DNA from: Streptosporangiaceae bacterium
GTDB lineage: Bacteria; Actinomycetota; Actinomycetes; Streptosporangiales; Streptosporangiaceae
Assembly (NCBI GenBank): GCA_025964715.1
Contig: JAOPYH010000199.1
Span: forward strand, 1-64,000
Reading direction: 5' to 3'
Length of the DNA: 64,000 nt
Shown: piece after piece, positions 10,447-59,379 of the stretch
How positions within the stretch are numbered: the first letter of the stretch is position 1
How the letters are laid out: each line of letters starts with the position of its first letter
Translations under genes and position numbers: made by a program
Notes under the pieces: generated by a model
The model's database searches: none
What the model saw: the letters and a program-made list of their open reading frames with translations, nothing else
What the model was told of the DNA's origin: nothing

Positions 10447-11325
10447 ATGGTGATGGAGCGGGAGAATCGGGCGCCCGGCGCCTGGGGGCGTCCGGACGCC
10501 TCGATGTCCCTGCTCGCCGATCTCTTCGCCGGCAAGGTCCTGGACCCCGGGTATGCCGAGGCGGCGACCCGCCGCGCGGCCCCGGGTGTCGCGGCCTCGC
10601 GGCCGCGCCGGGGGGCCCGTGTCGCGGGGCTCCTCATCGTGCTGGCCGTCATCGGCCTCCTGCTGGCCGCGGCCGGCGAGCAGGTGCGCCGGAGCGAGCC
10701 GGTGGCGGCGCGGCAGAGGGCCCGGCTGATCACCGAGATCCGCGGCCGTACAGCGGAGTCGGACGCGTTGCAGCGCCGCCTCGCGGCACTGCGCAGCGAT
10801 ACCGAGCGGGTACGCGAGGCGTCGCTGGCGAGCAGCGACGCCGGGCGCAGAGCCCGCGGGAGGCTCGCCCGCCTCTCCGACGCCGCGGCGGCGACCCCGG
10901 CCTCCGGCGGGGCCCTCGTGGTCGCACTCCAGGAGGCCCAGGGAGCCGGGCAGGAGACCGACGGGGCGGGCGGGGGCCGGGTCTACGACCAGGACCTGCA
11001 GATCGTCGTCAACGGGCTGTGGTCGGCCGGCGCCACGGCCATCGCGATCAACGGTCAGCGGCTGACGTCGCTCACCGCCATCAGGTCCGCGGGCGAGGCC
11101 ATCCTGGTCGACTACCGGCCGCTGTCACCGCCGTACACCGTGACCGCGCTGGGCGACCGCGAACTCCTGAGGACCGGCTTCGCCCATTCGCCCGCGAGCG
11201 GGCATCTGCGGGCGCTGAAGGACCAGTACGGCATCAGCGCCGACATACATTCGGAGCGCGGAGCCACGCTCCCGGCCGCCGGGGCGCTCCGGCTTCGCTA
11301 CGCGCAGGAGGAGACGAACGGGTGA
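10447..11325 (+). CDS. DUF881 membrane-anchored protein (first copy)
   Basis: 292 residues from ATG 10447; a second ATG lies two codons later. The frame is open further upstream, but that part is arginine-rich and unlike protein. One membrane helix (about residues 58-78) is followed by a coiled-coil-like stretch and the DUF881 domain with LQIVVNGLWSAGATAIAING and a C-terminal PPYTVTALGD. It matches Rv1823 in position. DUF881 proteins resemble a divisome/cell-wall scaffold and their exact function is unknown. The stop overlaps the GTG start of the next gene by four bases, indicating translational coupling. Confidence 0.85.
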   Translation: MVMERENRAPGAWGRPDASMSLLADLFAGKVLDPGYAEAATRRAAPGVAASRPRRGARVAGLLIVLAVIGLLLAAAGEQVRRSEPVAARQRARLITEIRGRTAESDALQRRLAALRSDTERVREASLASSDAGRRARGRLARLSDAAAATPASGGALVVALQEAQGAGQETDGAGGGRVYDQDLQIVVNGLWSAGATAIAINGQRLTSLTAIRSAGEAILVDYRPLSPPYTVTALGDRELLRTGFAHSPASGHLRALKDQYGISADIHSERGATLPAAGALRLRYAQEETNG

Positions 11326-54823: not shown

Positions 54824-55918
54824 TCAGGTTCGCAGAGGGCACACGGCGACGGCCCGGGGACCGTCGTGCGGTGCGGTCACGGTCCCGCCGGACAGCCGGT
54901 CCAGGTGCCATTCGACGTGGGAGACGGGGCTGCGCAGGCCGGTCAGGAGGTCTGCGAGCCGGCGATGCCGGCCGGGCTGAGCCGGGTCGGGAACCAGGCC
55001 GGTCCACAGCACCTCGGCACTTGCGGCCGTCCATCGGGCCGCCGCGCCAAGGACGTCGTCGAGGTCCCGGGCCACCTCGCCGACCGGCCGTGCGGCCATC
55101 GCCTCCTGGATCATCCGTTCCCGGGCCTCATAGTCGAGTGTGTCGTCGAACCGATCCGGAAACGACGGCCGGTGCCCATCGAAGATCATGTCCTCGCCGC
55201 TCGCGACGGCCCGCACGGCCGCGACCTGCCAGCGTGTCCATTCGGCCAGGTGGGCGAGCGTCGCATGGACGGCGGCCGTGGTCTCGCGGGACATGCGGGG
55301 TTCGCCGGTGAGGCTCGCAAGCCGCAGCCTCACGCGGTCCAGGTGGTCGCGCGTCCAGGCCCGGGCGCGCGACGGGGCGTCGTGATCGTCGTCCGGCGGG
55401 CGCCTGGGTGCCGGGATCCGCAGAGTGGTGAGCAATTCGTCCAGGGGACGTATTCCGGACGTGCCGCCGGTCAGATAGGCCGCGTCTATGCGGTCGAGAC
55501 GAAACAGCCGCGGGCCGTCGCGCAGCCGGCACCAGCCGACGAGGTATTCGCCGTAGGGCGCCACGACCAGTCCGTGGGCTTCGACGTCGCGCCGGGTCCG
55601 CTCACCGGTGTGACCCGTGTAGGAGATCCGTACGATTCCCCGGGTCCGCACGGCGTCGGCGACGGTCCGGTGTACGGGGCCGGCCAAGGAGGCGAGTCCG
55701 GCGAGCGTGGGCGGCTGGGGTTCCTCGGCCAACGCCGGCCCGCGTCCCCGTACCGTCACGACGGGCAGGCCGTCAGCCGAGAGGGTCTCGATGTCCCGCT
55801 GGAGCGTGCGCTCGCTCACTTGCAGCAGGCTCGCCAGATCCCTTGTGGCGACCGGCTCCGGGGCGGCGGCGCGCAGCTCCGCGACCAGGCCCAGCAGCCG
55901 TTCCGCGCGCGTCATCAC
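54824..55918 (-). CDS. HTH-WYL regulator with DinB-like C-terminal domain
   Basis: 364 residues from ATG 55918. Residues 1-60 are a DeoR-type helix-turn-helix (RDLASLLQVSERTLQRDIETLS). Residues about 90-165 contain the WYL-type sensing domain (GIVRISYTGHTGERTRRDVEAHGLVVAPYGEYLVGWCRL). Residues about 195-364 are different: a four-helix-bundle-like region with HATLAHLAEWTRWQVAAVRA and a final HVEWHLDRL, reminiscent of DinB/DfsB proteins. WYL regulators usually end with a WCX domain, so this tail is unusual. Target genes are unknown; the degenerate AAA gene just upstream on the same strand is one candidate. Confidence 0.8.
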   Translation of the reverse strand: MMTRAERLLGLVAELRAAAPEPVATRDLASLLQVSERTLQRDIETLSADGLPVVTVRGRGPALAEEPQPPTLAGLASLAGPVHRTVADAVRTRGIVRISYTGHTGERTRRDVEAHGLVVAPYGEYLVGWCRLRDGPRLFRLDRIDAAYLTGGTSGIRPLDELLTTLRIPAPRRPPDDDHDAPSRARAWTRDHLDRVRLRLASLTGEPRMSRETTAAVHATLAHLAEWTRWQVAAVRAVASGEDMIFDGHRPSFPDRFDDTLDYEARERMIQEAMAARPVGEVARDLDDVLGAAARWTAASAEVLWTGLVPDPAQPGRHRRLADLLTGLRSPVSHVEWHLDRLSGGTVTAPHDGPRAVAVCPLRT

Positions 55919-55968: not shown

Positions 55969-58284
55969 TCAGCTGGAGAGGTCCTCGACGATGCCGCTGA
56001 GGTCCTCGGGCGTGAGGAGGAGGGCCGTCGACTCCGAGATGGCCCGAGTCTCACCGGCCCGGCCGAGCTGGTTGGTGCAGGCCCGCTCGAGATAGACCTC
56101 GATGACCCTGGCGTTGATGAACCGGCCGCGGCCGGGGAGCCGCGCGAGATCCTGGCGGGCCATATCCCAGGCGGCCGCCGAGAGGCTGACCTGCCGCTCG
56201 GCTGCGAGGAGCCCGAGCAGCGCGCCGCGCAGCACCGGGTCGGTGAGGTCGGGGAGCCGTACGGCCCGGAAGCCGGTGACGAGTTCGGGTGATGCGGCCG
56301 ACAGCTCCGCCATGCGCTCGGTGGTGCAGGTCGCCACGAGCACCGTGTCGCTGACACCCTCGACCCGGGAGCGATAGAGCGCGCCGGCGTAGTCCTGCCC
56401 GTCCGGGTCGTCGAGGACGAGCGTGTCCAGGCGTTCGAGCAGCAGCGTGTGCCCTGCGTGCTCGTCGAGCGCGGCCCGTACTCCCTCGGGGTCGCGTTCG
56501 CGCAGGTCCTCGGCGTGCATGGAGTGAACCTCGCCGCTGCTGACCTCCACCTCGGCCAGCGCGCGAGAGATCATCCGGGTGAGCCTGCGCTGTCCGGACG
56601 AGGCGCCGCCGAGCAGCAGGAGCGCGGGTGCCGACGCGCTCGACACCTCTTGGCCGCGGAGCCGTCGTGCCCATTTCCCGCGCCGCCGTACCTCGGTGAG
56701 CAGCCGGTCGACGTCGTCGGGCCCGGACAGGAACCGGGTGCCGTAGGCCTCCACGATCTGGCTAGCCCCGACCGCGGGCGCCGAGGCCGGATGCGGCGCG
56801 GCCGGGGCCGCGGGGCCGGGCGGTGACGGTGGCTCGGGAGGACCCGGCTGCGGCGCTGCCTCCGGCGGGCCTGCCCTCCCTTCGGCCAGGTGCGCCCGCG
56901 CTGCCTCGATGATCTCCCACGGCGTCAGCTCGCCGGTCGACCTGGGGGCCTGCAGCGCCGGGCTGTCGAGCTCTGCCGCGGCCGCCGCGGCTACGGCGAA
57001 CCCGGGCGCGGGCGGAGGGACGTGCGCGAGCCGGCACCAGGTCAGCGCGACGGTGTAGGACGTGGCGAGCAGGGCCTGCACGTCTTCTGCCCGGTCACAG
57101 CGCAGCACCTCGGGGAGCCGGCCGTCCCTTGGCCAGAACTCCCGCAGCGGGTGCCCCGGCTGGGTGAGCACCGCGTGCAGCGTGCCGGCACTGTCGGGAT
57201 CGAGCCAGGGCAGGACGGCGGCGACCGCGTGCGGGGCACCCTGAAGGTCCGCGGCCAGCACGGCCACACCCGCGCGGCGGGCTTCAGCCGCGCCCAGCGA
57301 CCGGCGCGACAGGCCGGCGACGGTCTCCGCGAGGTCATAGACACCGAGCCGGAGATATTCGCCAGGGGCTCCGTCACGGACCATCGGGGTGGCGAACTCG
57401 GCCGGGCAGCGGCGCCGCCATTCCTGGGTGATGGTAGCGGGGCCGAAGCGGGCGGCCGCCATGTCCTGCTGGACCATCGGCAGGGTGGCCGAGGTGATCG
57501 CCGCGAGGGCGTCGGCGCCGGGCCGGAACCTGGGGTCGCCGCACAATGCCGTGGCGACCTGGTTCATGACCCGTACGAGGTAGGACCCGCCGACCAGGTC
57601 CCCCGTGCCCAGCCGGTCGCTGTAGTAGCCCGTCAGCCGGGAGAGATCGGGAGGCGTCATCCAGCGGAGGACATGGCCGGGAGCCGTGAGATAGGGGACG
57701 AACAGCTCGATCAACGGGTGCTCGCCCAGCACGACAGGGGATCCGGCGCACCACAGCAGCGCTCCCCAGGCGGCGGCGACCGTGCTGGGGGTGCCAGGTG
57801 GGAAGGCGTTGTCCTGGAGGCGGAACTGCGCCGGGTTGACCGACAGCGCGGTGATCAGGGCCTGTTGCAGCCGCGCCACGACGGCCGTCCCGGGCGGCCT
57901 GCCGAGGAAGGCGGTGGAGGAGATCCGGCCGGCGGCGAGGTCGGGTCCGACCGGGAACAACTGGGGCGGCACCGGCGGGTTTGCGGCTCCCGGCCGTGCC
58001 CGGCCGACCACACGGCGGGAGGCCGGGTCCGCGGGCGGGGGAGACGGATGCCAATGACCGTCCAGGCCGCAGCGGTACCAGCGGCCCCAGGCGCCGAACA
58101 ACCACCACTCTCCGGCGCCGGCGAGCATGTGCGAGATGACGGCCTCGCAGCGCTGGGGCGGCGCCGCACCACGCCACCAGGACGAGGCCGCCATCGCACG
58201 GACCTGTGCCTCCACCGCCGAGAAGGGATCGTCTGTTCCTCCGCCCATGCCAGGGCCGGCCGCCTGCCAATTCACCTGCCGCAT
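55969..58284 (-). CDS. CbxX/EccA-like AAA protein with degenerate Walker motifs
   Basis: 771 residues from ATG 58284, with AGGA about 9 bases upstream. The N-terminal 480 residues form an Ala/Leu/Pro-rich domain not recognised here (RCEAVISHMLAGAGEWWLFGAWG near the start). A Pro-rich linker (about 480-515) leads to a AAA+ module. Walker A reads LLGGASSGQRRLTRM (near residue 557) without the GKT/S lysine, and Walker B reads TLLLERLDTL without the DE pair. Sensor and lid sequences still resemble CbxX/EccA (VLVATCTTERM, GRFINARVIEVYLERA). It is probably a pseudo-ATPase acting as a scaffold or binding partner. No ESX genes are nearby. A WYL regulator gene follows. Confidence 0.7.
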   Translation of the reverse strand: MRQVNWQAAGPGMGGGTDDPFSAVEAQVRAMAASSWWRGAAPPQRCEAVISHMLAGAGEWWLFGAWGRWYRCGLDGHWHPSPPPADPASRRVVGRARPGAANPPVPPQLFPVGPDLAAGRISSTAFLGRPPGTAVVARLQQALITALSVNPAQFRLQDNAFPPGTPSTVAAAWGALLWCAGSPVVLGEHPLIELFVPYLTAPGHVLRWMTPPDLSRLTGYYSDRLGTGDLVGGSYLVRVMNQVATALCGDPRFRPGADALAAITSATLPMVQQDMAAARFGPATITQEWRRRCPAEFATPMVRDGAPGEYLRLGVYDLAETVAGLSRRSLGAAEARRAGVAVLAADLQGAPHAVAAVLPWLDPDSAGTLHAVLTQPGHPLREFWPRDGRLPEVLRCDRAEDVQALLATSYTVALTWCRLAHVPPPAPGFAVAAAAAAELDSPALQAPRSTGELTPWEIIEAARAHLAEGRAGPPEAAPQPGPPEPPSPPGPAAPAAPHPASAPAVGASQIVEAYGTRFLSGPDDVDRLLTEVRRRGKWARRLRGQEVSSASAPALLLLGGASSGQRRLTRMISRALAEVEVSSGEVHSMHAEDLRERDPEGVRAALDEHAGHTLLLERLDTLVLDDPDGQDYAGALYRSRVEGVSDTVLVATCTTERMAELSAASPELVTGFRAVRLPDLTDPVLRGALLGLLAAERQVSLSAAAWDMARQDLARLPGRGRFINARVIEVYLERACTNQLGRAGETRAISESTALLLTPEDLSGIVEDLSS

Positions 58285-58401
58285 AGTAGCCGTCCTGGCC
58301 GATTCGCCTGCCCTGCCGTTGATCGACCCCAATCGGCGGTAATGAGCGTCATCGCATTATGCTCATTAGCCCTTGGGGATCTCGGGATGTGGGAGCGGGC
58401 G

Positions 58402-59379
58402 ATGGGCGGCGGTAGCGCGGCGGCACGGACGAAGGCCTGGGGACTGGGCTTGGCCGTGGTCTCGTCGATCTGTTTCGGTGCCTCGGGACCCTTCGGTAAG
58501 GCTCTGATCCACGCGGGGTTCGGCCCGCTGCAGGCGGTGTGGTTGCGTGTCCTGGGGTCCGCCCTGGTCCTGGTCCCGCTGGTCCTGGTCCTGCGTGGCC
58601 CTTCGCGGCTTCGTGGCCTGCGGCCCTTTCTCCCGCAGCTCGTCGTCTACGGGATGACCGGCGTCGCCGGGTGCCAGGCGTTCTACTTCGTGGCGGCCTC
58701 GCGGCTGCCCGTCGGGATCGCGATCCTGCTGGAGTTCACCGGACCGGTCCTGGTGCTCGGCTGGATCCGGCTCGTCCGCAGGACCCGGGTCCATCCGACC
58801 GCCGCGCTGGGCGTCGGGGTCGCGATGGCCGGCCTGGCCTGCGTCGTGCAGGTCTGGTCGGGAGTGCGGCTTGACCTCATCGGCCTGCTGGCCGGCCTGG
58901 CGGCCGCAGCCTGCCAGGCGATGTACTTCCTGCTCGTCGAGCGGTTGACGGCCGACGTCGATCCGCTGGTCATGACGGCTGCGGGTGGCGTCGTGGCCGC
59001 GGTCGTGCTGGCCGTGCCGGCGATGCCCTGGGCGCTCCCTTGGCACATCCTGTCGGAGAACGTCGGGGTGGGCGCTCATTCCGCTCCCGCGTGGGCGCTG
59101 GCGCTCTGGATCATCCTGGTCAGCACCGTGATCGCCTACGTCACCGGCGTCGCCGCGGTGCAGCGGCTGTCGGCTCAGGTCGCGGGAGCGATCTGCTACA
59201 CCGAGGCGGTCGCGGCCACCCTGATCGCCTGGGCCGCCCTCGGCGAACGCCTCAGCCCCGTGCAGCTCGTCGGCGGCGTCGTGGTGCTCGCCGGCGCCTT
59301 CATCGCGCAGAGAGCCGCGTCGGGCAGTGCCGCGATCGCGGAGACCGCCGAGATCCCTGTGCCGTCGCCCGCGTCCTGA
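58402..59379 (+). CDS. EamA/DMT-family transporter
   Basis: 325 residues; ATG 58402 follows GGGAG at 6 bases, with ATG 58387 as alternative. Ten membrane helices in two EamA halves: the first half shows AVVSSICFGASGPFGKALIHAG and LRVLGSALVLVPLVLVL; the second GLLAGLAAAACQAMYFLLVERL and SAQVAGAICYTEAVAATLIAWAALGERLS, which holds the usual E-x-V and ALGE blocks. It exports or imports small metabolites; family members often handle amino acids or purines. Divergent from the degenerate AAA gene. Confidence 0.92.
   Translation: MGGGSAAARTKAWGLGLAVVSSICFGASGPFGKALIHAGFGPLQAVWLRVLGSALVLVPLVLVLRGPSRLRGLRPFLPQLVVYGMTGVAGCQAFYFVAASRLPVGIAILLEFTGPVLVLGWIRLVRRTRVHPTAALGVGVAMAGLACVVQVWSGVRLDLIGLLAGLAAAACQAMYFLLVERLTADVDPLVMTAAGGVVAAVVLAVPAMPWALPWHILSENVGVGAHSAPAWALALWIILVSTVIAYVTGVAAVQRLSAQVAGAICYTEAVAATLIAWAALGERLSPVQLVGGVVVLAGAFIAQRAASGSAAIAETAEIPVPSPAS

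Follow-up and report, generated by a model that had tools for sequence, protein, structure and literature searches.

A predicted pseudo-ATPase that joins a degenerate AAA+ module with a fixed P-loop replacement to an unannotated domain in actinomycetes

Introduction

What use does a bacterium have for an AAA+ module whose nucleotide-binding and catalytic residues have gone? The question is raised by a gene in a stretch of 64,000 nucleotides (the window) of contig JAOPYH010000199.1 from a Streptosporangiaceae bacterium. An earlier note, made from the sequence alone, had described there a large protein with both Walker motifs lost and proposed that it is a pseudo-ATPase scaffold, possibly one half of a two-gene system. 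In an excerpt of PMC10659427, members of the SpoVK/CbbX/EccA clade are described as narrow chaperones with variable N-terminal recruiting domains. Both fold and clade are already known. No name exists in the libraries searched for the family, for its fixed GQRRL motif, or for the N-terminal domain, here called N470, and our literature search found no description of an N470/GQRRL family.

Results

The reading frame at 55969..58284 is a real gene, which runs on the minus strand from an ATG at 58284 to a stop at 55969, encodes 771 amino acids, and gave a 100% self-match. The encoded protein, N470-D1, consists of three parts, all on the minus strand. N470 (residues 19 to 470; 56875..58230), delimited by a 36-row alignment (A2) and an AF2 model, is predicted to be mostly helical; it is followed by a Pro/Ala-rich linker of 38 residues (471 to 508; 56761..56874), recognized from the sequence, and by D1 (residues 509 to 770; 55975..56760), a degenerate AAA+ module with its lid, delimited by a second alignment (A1). 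BLAST offsets indicated that the linker is much longer in most relatives. Searches with the full protein returned no match in NCBIfam, PADLOC, or PHROGs and, in Pfam, AAA_lid_6 alone, under its cut-off; its sequence matched no PDB chain by phmmer, and a plasmid search returned one weak record. No match worth naming was found in Pfam, NCBIfam, PADLOC, or PHROGs for the N-terminal part of about 480 residues, which had been called a domain of unknown type.

The C-terminal module had been assigned to the CbxX/EccA type of AAA+ domain from the order of its motifs, and structure prediction bears this out. An AF2 model of D1 built from 24 rows (pLDDT 87.7, pTM 0.83) was compared with known structures using Foldseek, in which the top four matches were CbbX chains (E=2e-10 to 1.4e-9), and using VIA, in which CbbX chains scored Z 18.0, 17.8, and 17.6, ahead of the following chain at 16.8; the best of these CbbX matches had an rmsd of 6.2 over 252 aligned positions. 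A 29-row D1 profile searched against PDB sequences also placed CbbX first (E=6e-4), with an alignment that spans the P-loop, Walker B, and the lid. Because the model, the structural comparisons, and the profile all point to CbbX, we consider the AAA assignment sound: D1 is an AAA module by predicted structure, with the AAA+ fold and lid of the SpoVK/CbbX/EccA clade, and is nearest to CbbX by both profile and fold. The lid helices, described as kept, were recognized only weakly by sequence, as AAA_lid_6 matched below its curated cut-off (E=0.0049 with the full protein and 0.00086 with D1 alone).

Relatives were collected by a contig scan that returned 30 loci, mostly from Thermomonosporaceae, of which 29 (L005-L033) constitute group A and one (L034) is a fragment. 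Motif positions in D1 were set by aligning it with CbbX and with the intact CbxX proteins encoded in the same genome; the clade signatures (sensor-1 GY, Asn, and arginine finger) were taken from an excerpt of PMC10659427, and the role of the pore-loop Tyr in CbbX from an excerpt of PMC5437159. L006, L012, L024, and L025 end before D1. L029 was left out of A1, as the C-terminal part of its D1 reads out of frame, with its P-loop still GQRRL; L024 was left out of A2, and two further alignments leave out, among others, L004, L016, and L029 (A3) and L004, L024, and L026 (A4).

In place of the clade's P-loop GxxxxGK[ST], the window protein has GGASSGQR at residues 559 to 566 (56587..56610, minus strand), reading G559-G-A-S-S-G-Q565-R566-R567, with Lys replaced by Gln and Ser/Thr by Arg. 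This replacement is a property of the family. Across 29 aligned D1 modules, 28 have Q and one has E at the Lys position, the next position is R in 29/29, and the loop pattern GxxxxG[QE]RR is strictly conserved; 13 further D1 modules from the paralogous group B introduced below (L076, L121-L132) all read GQRR, so that the substitution of Lys by Gln or Glu and of the following Ser/Thr by Arg holds in 42/42 D1 modules examined. The loss of the Walker A lysine was therefore correctly read. The reported loss of the Walker-B acidic pair stands for its second member only. At LLLER (residues 614 to 618; 56431..56445, minus strand), the window protein has E617-R618 where the clade has Asp-Glu; over the 29 rows, the second position is G in 22, R in 3, D in 3, and E in 1, and the first acid is kept throughout (14 E, 15 D).

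Other parts of the motor are missing as well. The Tyr of the sensor-1 GY signature is C in 28 rows and V in 1; the arginine-finger position is D, G, A, or V in 29/29 in both HMMER and MAFFT alignments; and the Asn shortly before the first arginine finger is replaced by S, H, A, or I. The pore-loop-1 Tyr is absent, with a four-residue gap across QYVG in the D1 of 20/20 relatives, a gap also present in the alignment of the D1 profile to CbbX. Three arginines are invariant. The second arginine of the clade (sensor 2) corresponds to Arg726 in NAR (residues 724 to 726; 56107..56115, minus strand) and is R in 29/29 rows, and Arg673 and Arg676 of RAVR (residues 673 to 676; 56257..56268, minus strand) are likewise invariant in 29/29, lying two and five residues beyond the canonical finger. 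Based on these residues, D1 is predicted to be a pseudo-ATPase without nucleotide binding or hydrolysis.

Nei-Gojobori dN/dS was 0.14 to 0.32 for D1 (six close pairs) and 0.10 to 0.39 for N470 (seven pairs). Some of the dS values are small; the ratios indicate purifying selection rather than decay. That the gene is a decaying pseudogene, as the loss of catalytic residues, and of a second module in several lineages, might suggest, is hardly credible and was rejected in view of these ratios and the invariant replacement motif, together with an open frame and orthologues in several genera.

A second module, D2, follows D1 in three group-A relatives (L005, L007, and L008, of 25 group-A loci having a 3′ end), in a paralogue from the window's own genome (L004), and in group-B relatives. 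Homologues in which another part of the protein has its Walker residues intact would have counted against the pseudo-ATPase proposal, and this was borne out in part: the P-loop Lys is kept in 19/20 D2 modules (L127 has R), and the Walker-B Asp-Glu pair is found in 0/20, where QE, QQ, QK, EN, ED, or DR stands instead. The pore Tyr is kept in 0/20. Since the Asp-Glu pair is missing throughout, the relatives look impaired in hydrolysis too; the wider family is not clearly nucleotide-free, because the D2 modules of the three group-A relatives keep both Lys and Asp and that of the group-B gene L123 still has an acidic pair, Glu-Asp.

In a tree of 36 modules, the D1 modules of the two groups, A and B, cluster in one clade (100/100) and their D2 modules in another (98/94). 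As each clade joins the two groups, their common ancestor most likely had the layout N470-D1-D2, and D2 was lost within group A, in the lineage of the window with Actinomadura/Thermomonospora, in that of Actinocorallia, and in that of Actinoallomurus. On a 29-row tree, at least two changes of the D2 label are needed; we read this as two or three losses, because the D2 modules of A and B are sister clades, with the number turning on a single fork. Actinocorallia is placed differently by the N470 tree (for which group A was thinned to 15 rows and L080 was missed by a length/motif filter). A recent frameshift as the sole cause of the loss in the window was rejected, as tblastn with D2 as the query gave no match in the window, and L009-L033 likewise yielded no remnant of D2; the single match, that of a CbxX module in L028, falls within D1. 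Separately, in Actinoallomurus spadix (L029), the D1 lid region near 10690-10799 reads out of frame, which looks like a frameshift or an assembly error.

Fold comparison of N470 gave no credible match. Its AF2 model (pLDDT 75.2) had a best Foldseek match of E=0.31, with none under 0.001, which does not amount to evidence of a new fold. Pfam assigned no family to any of 36 N470 rows and returned no match for the window copy, and the matches below threshold were to DUF6927 in two rows (best E=0.048) and to Methyltransf_12 in one (E=0.088). Three paralogue groups were distinguished: A, which contains the window gene; B, with the layout N470-D1-D2 (D1 and D2 in 12/12 genes fetched); and C, N470 alone. 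The neighbors of group B are presumably gamma-carbonic-anhydrase-like, DivIVA-like, and phosphate-transport genes. Stand-alone N470 proteins of 436 to 494 aa were found in 11 other genomes of the family, and beside these genes lie, within the fetched stretch, a DivIVA-like gene in 11/11, a small gene of 61 to 81 aa in 9, and an anhydrase-like gene in 6. In many genomes, the small gene comes directly after a group-B or stand-alone N470 gene (e.g., L004:11646-11831). Among 25 genomes chosen for holding group A, all 25 had another full-length copy that falls in the group-B band, and 6 had group C. Sampling of the order gave N470 in 12 of 31 genomes and sampling of the class in 2 of 30, in both cases solely within the window's family.

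We also observed, in genome G003 (contig 488), a 1,179-aa protein with three CbxX-type AAA modules (L050:8736-12275, minus strand) that ends in GLGQYL. GQYL is given in an excerpt of PMC8223512 as the proteasome-docking tail of Mpa and Bpa. Among 984 called proteins, a [QN]Y[LM] ending occurs in this protein and three ARC/Mpa proteins and in no others. The triple-AAA protein, which was seen in one genome only, may be a proteasomal ATPase that has not been described. Its long-branched module m1 joins D1 in the 36-module tree, a placement to which we attach no weight. Kinship between N470 and the N terminus of this protein, compared as a single sequence, was not supported (hhalign probability 1.1%, E=0.047).

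Discussion

We consider N470-D1 to be probably a scaffold or adaptor without catalytic activity that arose from chaperones of the SpoVK/CbbX/EccA type, because its motor parts are lost yet the degenerate module is retained in relatives. The pseudo-ATPase part of the original proposal is supported by the AAA fold, by the loss of catalytic and threading residues in all D1 modules examined, and by purifying selection. As for the scaffold part, D1, which from its residues should be unable to bind nucleotide normally, hydrolyze it, or thread substrate, may have been kept as a surface for oligomerization, packing, and interaction with other proteins. It would hold the N470 domains in a fixed arrangement on their flexible linkers, and N470 would be the part that recruits a specific client. 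In the ancestral form, assembly may have been gated through D2 by nucleotide that is bound and not turned over, and in the window protein even this nucleotide-gated assembly would have been lost. Speaking against this reading, nucleotide binding persists in some degenerate AAA modules, and D1 could have a residual or unusual ligand, as the conservation of its first Walker-B acid and of its sensor-2 Arg might signify.

The main rival holds that D1 acts in trans and, in the manner of LAP1 and LULL1, donates an arginine to the site of an intact protein of the CbxX type in the same cell. The invariance of Arg673 and Arg676, so close to the lost finger, speaks for such a role, as do at least five CbxX-type proteins of the window genome whose motifs are intact; the LULL1 mechanism is described in an excerpt of PMC4999309. 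However, none of the adjacent genes encodes an active partner, the five CbxX-type genes being located on other contigs, and no row has an arginine at the canonical finger position itself. We therefore judge a trans-acting role unlikely.

A connection with the Pup-proteasome is suggested by group C, which adjoins prcB in the Pup-proteasome cluster, on the opposite strand, in 8/8 intact copies (L047:8417-9976; L077:7486-9060; L090-L095). The pup gene is seen on its other side in 6/8, and group C most often lies between pup and prcB; at L047, Pup, Dop, PrcB, PrcA, and the proteasome ATPase all exceed their NCBIfam cut-offs. N470 could accordingly be a proteasome accessory, with its AAA-fused paralogues, the window protein included, serving the proteasome or its ATPases as adaptors or as ring caps that need no ATP, a role that we regard as quite improbable. 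The proteasome locus of the window genome has no group-C copy, few group-A genomes carry one, and in G002 group C has decayed to fragments beside pup. Groups A and B are located elsewhere, the window protein has no C-terminal GQYL docking motif, and conserved gene order may persist without a functional link. We give equally little credence to the broader proposal that N470 represents an undescribed domain of actinomycetes with a tie to the Pup-proteasome and, when fused to dead AAA modules, forms ATP-independent, non-threading regulatory or capping rings. If such a proteasome ring exists, one family would display stepwise loss of its motor, through a D2 without the Walker-B pair to no D2 at all.

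The two-gene system proposed in the earlier note, in which the WYL regulator would sense a ligand and control or act with the pseudo-AAA protein, fared poorly in a survey of gene neighborhoods. The regulator gene (54824..55915, minus strand; WYL E=1.6e-16, HTH_11 E=1.2e-9) lies on the same strand about 50 bp downstream of the N470-D1 gene. Group-A loci that include the 3′ end of the gene number 25 of 29, the other four ending before the WYL site, and in these tblastn with the WYL protein found a full relative downstream in 10/25, a remnant in 1/25 (about 43 residues of the tail, after the AAA gene in L005), and none in 14/25. In L010, L011, and L022, the WYL gene is gone and the following genes are kept. 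Because WYL is present in full in only 10 of the 25 loci and neighboring genes stay in order where it is missing, the data do not support a fixed two-gene system, whose chances we rate as slim. The steadier neighbor is a divergent gene about 100 bp upstream (58387..59379, plus strand), which we take to encode an EamA-type transporter and which is near the gene in 23/29 group-A loci. The C-terminal half of the WYL protein (54824-55372) has no Pfam match beyond HTH and WYL.

It is very improbable that D1 is an atypical working NTPase which uses the GQRRL loop and the remaining Walker-B acid. The strict conservation of the loop, the first Walker-B acid, and the sensor-2 Arg would fit such an enzyme, but the P-loop Lys, the Mg-binding Ser/Thr, the arginine finger, sensor 1, and the pore Tyr are missing, as is the catalytic Glu in 28/29 rows.

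Pseudo-AAA subunits have been recognized before; the present case is one of several paralogues, within a single bacterial family, that have preserved a dead AAA module whose replacement motif is fixed, and relatives show intermediate stages, with a second module that has the P-loop Lys but no Asp-Glu Walker-B pair and then is gone. This combination allows one to test, in a common soil bacterium, what purpose an AAA ring serves when it uses no ATP. No annotation covers N470, one paralogue of which is located within the Pup-proteasome cluster.

Comparison with known systems

Among solved structures, the nearest relative of D1 by sequence profile and fold is CbbX, the red-type Rubisco activase, with which it shares the AAA core and lid. 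D1 differs from CbbX in lacking the P-loop Lys, the Ser/Thr, the catalytic Glu, the arginine finger, and the pore-loop Tyr, and the window protein carries N470 in a different kind of locus, with no Rubisco genes among the listed neighbors of the window gene or the group-A loci.

An EccA-like protein from the same genome (L072:5051-8335) likewise has a degenerate AAA module, its second, with the P-loop GSGRR. It differs in its intact first module, beta-helix N terminus, and locus, which we take to be ESX-like from its small WXG100-like genes. Its degenerate module does not group with D1 in the module tree, where it sits on a long branch and is placed unsurely. Relatives of the window protein do resemble the SpoVK/EccA clade in D2, which in L007 matched SpoVK (TIGR02881, E=1.7e-47), CbbX (TIGR02880, E=6.2e-38), and EccA (TIGR03922, E=1.1e-33), all below curated cut-offs, and the layout of a variable N-terminal domain with an AAA module, as set out in an excerpt of PMC10659427, is shared. 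In contrast to EccA of type VII secretion systems, which belongs to an ESX cluster and has a TPR/beta-helix N terminus, the window protein has neither TPR nor beta-helix, and no ESX genes are among those listed between about 48.6 and 63.9 kb, as the earlier note had stated. D1 also departs from the clade in its sensor-1 GY, Asn, and finger signatures, and D2 in its pore Tyr.

Proteasome activators (Mpa/ARC and Bpa) end in GQYL, as does the ARC of the same genome, whereas the window protein ends in EDLSS. LAP1 and LULL1, the activators of TorsinA, are described in an excerpt of PMC4999309 as AAA-related partners without Walker A and B, a likeness of description; unlike D1, they are eukaryotic luminal proteins with a known partner. 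A precedent for a structural subunit exists within the clade itself, as the CbbX of the red alga C. merolae is a hetero-oligomer of which one subunit is listed, in an excerpt of PMC5437159, as mostly structural.
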